This document shows positions 20,301 through 22,757 of a stretch of DNA of 64,000 bases, piece after piece. Source of the DNA: Serratia silvae. Its GTDB lineage: Bacteria; Pseudomonadota; Gammaproteobacteria; Enterobacterales; Enterobacteriaceae. The position numbers and the translations under genes are program-made. The notes under the pieces are model-generated. The model saw only the letters and a list, made by a program, of their open reading frames with translations, was not told the origin of the DNA and did no database searches. How positions within the stretch are numbered: the stretch's first letter is position 1; each line of letters starts with the position of its first letter. The DNA is taken from positions 186,001-250,000 of the forward strand of contig NZ_JAGQDC010000001.1 of the NCBI RefSeq assembly GCF_023282985.1, given 5' to 3'.

Positions 20301-20614
20301 TGGATGCCACCCACGGTACCGCAGTGGTGCTGGGCGAAGCGGGGATTAACCCACGCCTGGTCAACAAGGTGCATGAAGGGCGTCCGCACATTCAAGACCG
20401 TATCAAGAACGGCGAGTACACCTACATCGTTAATACCACGGCAGGGCGTCAGGCGATTGAAGACTCCAAGCTGATCCGCCGTAGTGCGCTGCAGTATAAA
20501 GTGCACTACGACACCACGATGAACGGCGGTTTTGCTACCTCGATGGCGATGAAGGCAGATCCAACCGAGCAGGTCACATCGGTGCAGGAACTACACGCAC
20601 GAATCACCAAGTAA
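17393..20614 (+). CDS. carB: Carbamoyl-phosphate synthase large subunit
   Basis: A 1073-residue synthetase built of two homologous ATP-grasp halves, which phosphorylate bicarbonate and then carbamate. A C-terminal MGS-like allosteric domain (from about residue 936) binds UMP and ornithine. Repeated motifs such as [19 protein letters not shown] (residue 12) and [17 protein letters not shown] (about 561) mark the halves. Length equals E. coli CarB. It begins 18 bases after carA with an AGGAG site. Confidence 0.99.
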
Positions 20615-20637
20615 GTTAGTAAGTTAGTTGCTTTGAG

Positions 20638-20662
20638 GCGCTGCTTTTGCAGCGCTTTTTTT
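20638..20662 (+). terminator. carAB terminator
   Basis: GGCGCTGC / GCAGCGCT stem with a TTTT loop, followed by a T-run, about 25 bases after carB. Confidence 0.88.
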
Positions 20663-20829: not shown

Positions 20830-21468
20830 ATGCTAAATAAACACGAGAATATCCTGCAGATCACCCATCTTAGCCGGGAGGGGATTGCTCAACTGGCTCC
20901 TTCATTCAACACACTTCCCCACACCCAGCATGCGGATGGCAAGTACCGTCTGCGGCGTTATTCCGTCGTGCGTTTTCAGGGTGGAAAGGTGGTAGAGACG
21001 GGCAAACATGAGTTTGTACAATCTGAGGATATCAACCATTTTCAGGGCAATATTGTTCGCCAATTCGAACCGCTCTTGAGCACGACCTGGCAAAATGAGG
21101 GGATGCGTGAAATGTGCGGGGTCTTTGTTGATAGCAATGATCTACCGGACAACCAGGAGATAGAGATCCACCAGATCCGCATTACCACCACCTATGATGA
21201 AACTCAGGTAGCGCCGGAAGGCATCCATCGCGATGGTTTTGATCATATCGCGATAGTCGGTATCGACAGGCATAACATTGTAGGGGGGGATATCCTGCTC
21301 TATAACAGTAATCGCGAAGAGCCATTTTTCCGTAAGGTGTTAGAAAATGGCGAAATTGCCATGATTGCTGATAGTAAGCTATGGCATAACGCCTGCCCAA
21401 TCCGTGCTGTCGTGACCGATAAAGAAGGGCATATGGATGTTTTTGTTCTGACGGCGAGGGTGGTATGA
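20830..21468 (+). CDS. Fe(II)/2-oxoglutarate dioxygenase, IDO-like (PF10014 type)
   Basis: A 212-residue protein that resembles the bacterial 2OG-Fe dioxygenases around L-isoleucine 4-hydroxylase (IDO). The iron triad is visible as H133-x-D135 (GIHRDGFDH) and H186 (DSKLWHNACP). The linking motif IVGGDILLYNS, which family members share, sits between them. Family members hydroxylate free amino acids, so an amino-acid hydroxylase is likely; the substrate is unknown. The start follows AAGGTG. The gene overlaps the next by four bases (ATGA). It is less GC-rich than its neighbours and absent from this site in E. coli, which suggests accessory DNA. Confidence 0.8.
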   Translation: MLNKHENILQITHLSREGIAQLAPSFNTLPHTQHADGKYRLRRYSVVRFQGGKVVETGKHEFVQSEDINHFQGNIVRQFEPLLSTTWQNEGMREMCGVFVDSNDLPDNQEIEIHQIRITTTYDETQVAPEGIHRDGFDHIAIVGIDRHNIVGGDILLYNSNREEPFFRKVLENGEIAMIADSKLWHNACPIRAVVTDKEGHMDVFVLTARVV

Positions 21469-22706
21469 CATTTACGCCTGAACAAAGCCGGGCGCAATTC
21501 AGTGCCCTGGCTCAGCTCTATCAAGGAAAAAGCGTGGTGTTCTTTGATGGCCCCGGTGGCTCACAGGTTCCGCGCACGGTGTTAGACAAGATGGTCGATT
21601 ATTTGGGCCAGCATAATGCCAACCTGGGGGGACACTATTTTTCCAGCAAAGCCACTGAGCAAGTGATGCTACAAGCCAGAGAGTCCGTTCGGGCGTTCTT
21701 GAATGCCAGCTCGGCCGACAATATTGTCTTTGGCGCCAACATGACCTCACTGACTTTTCAACTGAGCCGCGCTATCAGCCGGGATTGGCAAGCGGGGGAC
21801 GAGGTGATCGTCACCGCTCTGGATCACTATGCGAACGTTTCGAGTTGGCAACAGGCCGCTGATGATAAACAGGTTGTTGTCCATCAGGTGCCTGTTAATG
21901 CGCAGGATTGTACATTAGACGTCGATAAACTTTGTGCGCTCATTAACGCCAAAACTCGGTTGGTGGCTGTCACCTATGCGTCAAATACCACAGGCTCGAT
22001 CGTGGATATAAAGCGTATCGTCGACGCGGCACACCAGGTTGGCGCTTTGGTGTATGTAGATGCTGTGCACTATGCCCCACACCGCCTTATTGATGTTCAG
22101 GCGTTGGGTTGCGACATACTCCTGTGTTCCGCGTATAAATTTTTTGGCCCACACGTCGGGATTGCCTATCTGGCCGCGCCGTGGTTGCAAACGTTACGTC
22201 CTTACAAGGTCGAGCCGGCCACCGATCTTGGCCCTGGACGTTTTGAGACGGGGACTCAGAGTTTTGAGGGGCTCGCGGGGGTGACTGCTGCGATTGAATA
22301 CCTGGCTCAGTGGGGAGAACCCGGTGCGCCATTGCGGCAGCGCTTGCAAGACAGCTTTAGCCAACTCAGCCAGCATGAAGAAGCGCTCAGCGCTTATTTC
22401 CTGGATAAGCTACGGCAAGTCAAAGGTGCGCGTTTGTACGGTATCGATCGGCCAGATGCCAACTGCCGGACCCCGACTTTCGCCGTGACGTTTGCGCACG
22501 TGCTGCCTGAATTGGTTGCTAGAGCGCTGGGCGAGCACAATATTTGTGTCGGGAACGGGCATTTTTATGCGTTGGGGCTGATCCGCCAACTGGGTCTGGA
22601 GCAACGTGGCGGTGTCGTGCGGATCGGATTGATGCATTACAACACCCGCCAGGAAATTGACCGCTTGTTTGAGATTATCAATACGTTGAGTCAATCATTG
22701 CCATAA
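21465..22706 (+). CDS. Class-V aminotransferase fold PLP enzyme, cysteine desulfurase-like
   Basis: A 413-residue fold-type I PLP enzyme of the cysteine-desulfurase-like group. Visible elements are LDHYANVSSW (aromatic or His stacking on PLP), the aspartate in YVDAVHYAPH and the Schiff-base lysine in LLCSAYKFFGPHVG. I see no clear mobile catalytic cysteine loop as in IscS/SufS, so sulfur transfer is doubtful. Related enzymes include epimerases, lyases and kynureninase-like proteins. Four-base overlap with the dioxygenase gene implies one operon, and possibly sequential action on the same amino acid (inference). Confidence 0.8.
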   Translation: MTFTPEQSRAQFSALAQLYQGKSVVFFDGPGGSQVPRTVLDKMVDYLGQHNANLGGHYFSSKATEQVMLQARESVRAFLNASSADNIVFGANMTSLTFQLSRAISRDWQAGDEVIVTALDHYANVSSWQQAADDKQVVVHQVPVNAQDCTLDVDKLCALINAKTRLVAVTYASNTTGSIVDIKRIVDAAHQVGALVYVDAVHYAPHRLIDVQALGCDILLCSAYKFFGPHVGIAYLAAPWLQTLRPYKVEPATDLGPGRFETGTQSFEGLAGVTAAIEYLAQWGEPGAPLRQRLQDSFSQLSQHEEALSAYFLDKLRQVKGARLYGIDRPDANCRTPTFAVTFAHVLPELVARALGEHNICVGNGHFYALGLIRQLGLEQRGGVVRIGLMHYNTRQEIDRLFEIINTLSQSLP

Positions 22707-22722
22707 GCCGGTGATGCCATAT

Positions 22723-22757
22723 TGCCCCCATATCCTGATAATCAGGTGATGGGGGCA
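22723..22757 (+). other. Strong hairpin after the accessory operon
   Basis: Outer stem TGCCCCCAT / ATGGGGGCA, a two-by-two internal loop, and an inner stem CCTG / CAGG. No T-run follows, so it is a likely 3'-end stabiliser or weak terminator rather than a classic one. Confidence 0.5.

Follow-up and report, generated by a model that had tools for sequence, protein, structure and literature searches.

Characterized enzymes of the PF10014 family are known to attack C4 of the free L-amino acids Ile, Leu, and Thr (PMC3684760, PMC8948231). BelL and HrmJ attack the same carbon of 6-nitronorleucine, BelL taking the C4 pro-S hydrogen (PMC10764440). In IDO, the iron is bound through the motif H159-x-D161-x50-H212, and R227, at the place of the arginine of the family's 'RD' element, was modeled to hold the substrate carboxylate (PMC10180240). 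In Fusarium, the fusaoctaxin B system contains the P450 Fgm1, which hydroxylates C4 of arginine, and the PLP lyase Fgm3, which then cleaves the Cβ-Cγ bond of 4-hydroxy-arginine to give alanine and an aldehyde (PMC10967133), a reaction described as retro-aldol, with the tyrosine Y225 proposed as general base (PMC10367076).

The locus analyzed here lies in a window of 64,000 nucleotides from Serratia silvae, in which a PF10014 dioxygenase gene and a class-V PLP enzyme gene stand between carB and kefF. The pair would follow the same hydroxylate-then-PLP logic as Fgm1-Fgm3, but its hydroxylase belongs to PF10014 and not to the P450s, and no amidohydrolase stands beside it, whereas the fungal system has the amidohydrolase Fgm2, which acts on a cyclic product. 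The Hil operon of Pantoea ananatis (hilA-hilB-hilC) is likewise centered on a PF10014 enzyme that hydroxylates a free amino acid (PMC3684760). However, the five-gene Hil core hilR-hilP-hilA-hilB-hilC is not matched by the two genes of the window, which have carB and kefF as neighbors, lack a PF13640 partner, a reductase, a transporter, and a regulator, and combine the hydroxylase with a class-V PLP enzyme instead.

Gene layout and insertion site

The dioxygenase gene (positions 20830 to 21468, forward strand, 212 amino acids) and the PLP gene (21465 to 22706, forward strand, 413 amino acids) share the ATGA at 21465 to 21468, where the stop of the former overlaps the start of the latter in an arrangement of translational coupling. 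This four-base overlap had been reported in a preliminary description of the locus, and both reading frames run exactly as described there. Upstream, carB ends at 20614 and is followed by an intrinsic terminator-like hairpin (20635 to 20658, forward strand). The terminator scan returned one hairpin where 3.0 were expected by chance, and this one is credible only through its position after carB; because it comes directly after that gene, the pair is probably a transcription unit of its own. Just 3' of the PLP gene, a self-inverted match revealed an imperfect 35-bp palindrome (22723 to 22757, forward strand) that has no T run and gave no score in the terminator scan, and which is a possible end of the unit. 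The promoter scan at the pair gave matches near chance level.

The GC content is 48.8% in the dioxygenase gene and 54.0% in the PLP gene, against 55.1% in the whole window, and GC3 amounts to 53.5% and 58.7%, respectively, against 68 to 70% in carB, kefF, and kefC. The distinct base composition claimed earlier is thus real, but the difference is only moderate in size.

Within the genus, three of seven species carry the pair. Three other congeners show the empty site, with a carB-kefF gap of 166 to 176 bp compared with about 2.2 kb in the window, and in the seventh species no kefF match was found. The earlier reading of the pair as inserted between carB and kefF agrees with this comparison, and so does its absence from this site in E. 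coli, since 5,426 E. coli genomes gave no match. In related genera the pair has neighbors other than carB and kefF. Horizontal movement and repeated loss both fit such a patchy occurrence, and the deviating base composition of the pair favors gain. In one genome (G516), the region downstream of the pair contains a second copy of a carB 3' fragment (127 bp, 92%; L141:3484-3540, L154:1-127), adjoining a frame on the reverse strand that encodes about 390 amino acids; this repeat may record how the insertion arose.

Co-occurrence of hydroxylase and lyase

A search of 84,980 species genomes yielded 72 hydroxylase loci, from Vibrio, Serratia, Photobacterium, and Agarivorans, and at 70 of them the lyase lies directly downstream; the other two have a hydroxylase with no lyase beside it. 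The two frames overlap or abut at every locus measured (75 of 75, close relatives included). In a survey that started from the lyase (E<=1e-85) and made no reference to the hydroxylase, the lyase was present in 55 of the 346 genomes of the order. PF10014 stands directly upstream of it in 48 of these 55, and in genus g421 the adjoining hydroxylase is only 28 to 31% identical. The remaining seven genomes, from two genera, have PF10014 elsewhere, within about 4 to 5 kb of the lyase in g433 but on separate contigs in g450. PF10014 occurs in 69 of the 346 genomes, namely in all 55 with the lyase versus 14 of the 291 without it (Fisher p=4e-51 by genome and 6e-13 by genus, the genus figure being the fairer one because related genomes are not independent). 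Among the 346 genomes every one with the lyase has a hydroxylase, but not every one with a hydroxylase has the lyase, an asymmetry to be expected if the lyase acts on what the hydroxylase makes. Over 73 loci, the correlation between hydroxylase distances and lyase distances is 0.88 (Mantel p 0.001), which partly reflects shared species history.

Because the two genes travel together so strictly, we may conclude from their genomic distribution that they almost certainly form one pathway, and the 55/55 co-occurrence makes this functional link about as secure as genomics allows. Chance neighborhood was rejected on the same co-occurrence. A lack of joint conservation, which the preliminary description had named as evidence against its reading, is not what these surveys returned. 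As separate observations, the lyase frames of some Vibrio and Serratia genomes (L084, L085, L086, L199) are short or contain a stop, and at L106 no lyase stands between the flanking genes usual in Vibrio; either decay or sequencing error may account for these cases.

The pair extends beyond these lineages. In the cyanobacterium Gloeothece verrucosa, a PF10014 gene (34% identity) and a lyase gene (48%) are neighbors 2 bp apart, while Piscirickettsia has both genes unlinked. In the PF10014 tree, the proteins of lyase-bearing lineages make up one side of a single 100%-supported branch, which takes in the unlinked copies of Piscirickettsia and of genus g450; here the paired group was taken to include the rows L106 and L108, which have no lyase beside them. 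The other side holds proteins of genomes without a lyase of the pair clade, together with the second copies in Vibrio-type genomes. Alphaproteobacterial lyases of about 40 to 44% identity mostly occur without PF10014 (3 of 9 genomes checked have it), so that the pair has a boundary. In the Piscirickettsia type (L143, L146, L161), genes for a DUF4286 protein and an MFS transporter flank the unlinked lyase in each case.

No third gene recurs generally within several kilobases of the pair at 33 loci of about 20 genera, the next neighbor clusters being antisense artefacts or shared synteny, and no transport or aldehyde-handling gene is conserved beside the pair at these loci. Since only the two genes recur there, the two enzymes make up the whole module, which includes no transporter, regulator, or downstream enzyme of its own. 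In three separate lineages (L240:4080-5282, L252:12-1898, L166:391-3129), the pair has an aconitase gene within about 1.5 kb, AcnB- or AcnA-like by sequence reading and annotated as acnA in L166, which may be a coincidence.

Residues and affinities of the two enzymes

The dioxygenase matches PF10014 with 194.9 bits (1.4e-57, cutoff 23.1) over positions 2 to 192 of 192. Its iron triad H133-x-D135-x50-H186 (codons 21226 to 21228, 21232 to 21234, and 21385 to 21387) is invariant in 78 of 78 homologues, and the spacing is identical to that of the IDO motif. The AF2 model (pLDDT 90.7) is closest to HrmJ, BelL, 8w8h, MpDO, and IDO, with TM values of 0.69 to 0.84, while structural alignment gives only 16 to 19% identity to IDO and 16 to 24% to the solved structures overall. 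Hence, of the 'IDO-like' Fe/2OG dioxygenase proposed earlier, the family, the fold, and the triad residues hold good, but no closer kinship with IDO does. The Pfam match, the model, and the triad make the protein a predicted C4 hydroxylase of a free amino acid. It has family, fold, and iron ligands in common with IDO, MFL/AVI/BPE/GOX, HilB, and BelL/HrmJ, the characterized ones of which perform C4 chemistry on free amino acids; however, it belongs to a distinct subfamily by its co-occurrence with the lyase, and it lacks the family's 'RD' arginine.

This arginine, which follows the distal His in PF10014, corresponds to Met202 of the window dioxygenase (21433 to 21435). The position is Met, Leu, Trp, or Val in all 78 close homologues, versus Arg in 21 of 21 other aligned PF10014 proteins. 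Because the replaced residue matches R227 of IDO, it seems that substrate binding is changed in the lineage of the close homologues, in a manner unreadable from sequence. The arginine is retained in the paired proteins of Gloeothece and g421 and in Piscirickettsia, and its loss as a mark of pairing was therefore rejected. Nor was the loss taken to exclude membership in PF10014, because the profile match and the triad are both in place and no source makes this arginine defining. Three of the four IDO residues modeled to hold the amino acid are changed in the alignment (Y143, S153, and R227 to Ile118, Val127, and Met202), so naming the substrate from the IDO pocket failed. Elsewhere (L260, L261), PF10014 lies inside an open frame of 665 codons whose N-terminal part resembles a PP-loop ATPase (SGGLDS), a possible fusion.

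The PLP enzyme scores 529.7 bits (5.7e-159) against TIGR01976 'am_tr_V_VC1184', above the NCBI cutoff of 352.35, while its 230 bits against the SufS model remain below the cutoff of 475. The fold, the PLP lysine (K225, 22137 to 22139), and Arg386 are common to this enzyme and SufS/CsdA. However, Tyr368 (22566 to 22568) sits at the place of the catalytic Cys of SufS (C364 in E. coli), and this Tyr is kept in 74 of 76 homologues, the other two showing one gap and one Ser but never Cys. Neither scores nor folds separate Fgm3 from SufS: the best PDB match by score is FGM3 9x4u with 180.2 bits, level with SufS at 179.6, and a Foldseek search with the AF2 model (pLDDT 94) gave SufS-type desulfurases as the best 50 matches, with TM values of about 0.9, the folds being too alike for this search to be informative. 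The affinity to Fgm3 therefore rests on the trees and the signature residues.

In trees that took in gammaproteobacterial SufS proteins and the B. subtilis SufS, the PLP enzyme, TIGR01976, and Fgm3 (flagged as a long branch in one tree) are split from SufS by a 100%-supported branch with a length of 1.5 to 1.8. The non-SufS side carries Tyr-Lys, almost always GPH, and mostly HYN, all three of which the window enzyme and Fgm3 have in common, versus His-Lys, GPT or GPS, and FYN, IYN, or LYN on the SufS side. Judged by sequence and phylogeny, the PLP enzyme is no SufS-type desulfurase. It does not group with SufS; a grouping with Cys-bearing SufS/IscS enzymes was the outcome that the preliminary description had set against its own proposal. 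The Tyr before the PLP Lys is conserved and a Phe follows two residues after the Lys, the Y225 numbering of Fgm3 being not securely tied to the chain.

Together, the NCBIfam match, the trees, and the signature residues mark the PLP enzyme as a predicted Fgm3-like C-C (retro-aldol) lyase. Fgm3 itself falls in the sister clade and not in the clade of the window enzyme. In the numbering of the PLP enzyme, the window pocket has His202 and 'YKVE' at 247 to 250, where Fgm3 has Ala at 202 and 'LGHF'; across the pair clade, His202, Lys248, and Tyr122 stand against Ala or Ser, mostly Gly/Asn, and Glu in the Fgm3 clade. Because of this different signature, arginine is not to be assumed as the substrate, and the pocket residues suggest that the substrate, and possibly the reaction too, may differ from those of Fgm3.

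Proposed side chain cleavage and its alternatives

In the pathway that we propose, the PF10014 dioxygenase would use Fe(II), O2, and 2-oxoglutarate to hydroxylate a free L-amino acid, most likely at C4. The resulting 4-hydroxy amino acid would form an external aldimine with the PLP enzyme, and retro-aldol cleavage of its Cβ-Cγ bond would set free an aldehyde or ketone; L-alanine would remain, or 2-aminobutyrate where Cβ carries a methyl group. A hydroxyl at C4 is precisely the requirement of a PLP retro-aldol, so the two families would supply the two halves of the Fgm1-Fgm3 logic. In the best reading by analogy, PF10014 stands in for the fungal P450, to which it is unrelated, and the pair would be the bacterial equivalent of Fgm1-Fgm3. 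That the module strips the side chain of a free amino acid in these two reactions has, in our estimation, an even chance of being right. The observed ground is formed by the families, the intact iron and PLP ligands, the missing desulfurase Cys, the overlapping frames, the co-occurrence, and the ancestry shared with Fgm3, while the free amino acid as substrate, C4 as site, and the retro-aldol reaction are all read across from relatives. The earlier suggestion that a free amino acid is hydroxylated and then enters a PLP reaction is borne out as far as the pairing and the lack of a desulfurase signature go, with the chemistry as a prediction; the second step, left unnamed there, is likely of the Fgm3-type Cβ-Cγ retro-aldol kind by analogy. 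Substrates could be weakly ranked as Leu/Ile/Met type, then Arg/Lys, then Glu/Gln, and the purpose may be either catabolic or biosynthetic.

Hydroxylation might also be followed by transamination, decarboxylation, epimerization, or dehydration, which would yield a building block or a signal. Class-V PLP enzymes are chemically diverse, and the pocket signature unlike that of Fgm3 leaves room for another PLP step. The HilAB operon offers a precedent, in which PF10014 hydroxylation serves a product of unknown role (PMC3684760). Yet lineage and general signature are common to the PLP enzyme and Fgm3, and the pair lacks any recurrent tailoring, ligase, or export gene, so we consider such a step unlikely, though worth keeping in mind. 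We regard as improbable a scheme in which a thioether amino acid is S-oxygenated by the dioxygenase and then cleaved by the PLP enzyme in the manner of a cysteine-sulfoxide (alliinase/EgtE-like) C-S lyase: C-S lyases such as EgtE do occur in class V, but the sole characterized enzyme on the branch of the PLP enzyme is a C-C lyase. IDO does accept L-Met (PMC13336071), while the characterized PF10014 reactions are mostly at C4.

The changed pocket residues Ile118, Val127, and Met202 would also agree with a dioxygenase that acts on a peptidyl, lipid, or nucleotide substrate, with the lyase working on the released product. This is very improbable, because free amino acids are the substrates of all characterized PF10014 enzymes that were found, a PLP partner points to an amino acid, and other paired lineages keep the 'RD' arginine. 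Scarcely credible is a cysteine desulfurase or selenocysteine lyase next to an unrelated dioxygenase. The database annotation 'cysteine desulfurase-like' and the SufS-like fold speak for it; against it stand the Tyr at the catalytic position, the branch separate from SufS, the strict co-occurrence with PF10014, and two further matches to the family model in the same genome, at least one of them at a SufS-like score. The desulfurase reading was rejected on the missing Cys and the tree, and is refuted at the level of the catalytic residue.

For the side chain cleavage pathway, the open-access literature searched yielded no biochemistry on members of either subfamily, nothing relevant on VC1183/VC1184, and no description of the pair. 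To our knowledge, such an amino-acid converting route is on no pathway map. With a confidence slightly short of even, we suggest that a 2-oxoglutarate hydroxylase and a PLP lyase form a hitherto undescribed pathway, widespread among bacteria, that strips a common free amino acid of its side chain and gives alanine and a small aldehyde or ketone. It would be a convergent counterpart of fungal Fgm1-Fgm3, occurring in Vibrio, Photobacterium, Salinivibrio, Serratia, and at least one cyanobacterium. If this is true, many gammaproteobacteria and at least one cyanobacterium hold a route hidden behind the label 'cysteine desulfurase-like protein', a misleading annotation would be corrected, and the TIGR01976 pair clade would gain its first function. 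The two proteins would also be a matched enzyme pair for biocatalysis, for hydroxylation and, in reverse, for aldol synthesis of γ-hydroxy amino acids.

Bacterial lyases of the Fgm3 clade were seen beside hydA (dihydropyrimidinase) and amino-acid ABC transporter genes. They belong to the same wider non-SufS family as the window enzyme, but group with Fgm3 and have no PF10014 beside them. On plasmids of Polaromonas, Rhodobacter, and Rhizobium tumorigenes (L172, L175, L176), amino-acid ABC transporter genes, an Fgm3-grouping lyase, and hydA make up one unit, and the Rhodobacter unit has ArgP and a LysE/ArgO-type exporter close by. The hydA-type amidohydrolases recall Fgm2, and these plasmid units are possibly a bacterial 4-hydroxy-arginine route. 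On other Rhizobium plasmids (L162, L168, L169), genes for an aldehyde dehydrogenase and an M20 hydrolase adjoin lyases of about 41 to 43% identity, and amino-acid ABC transporters are close to the lyase in L162 and L168.
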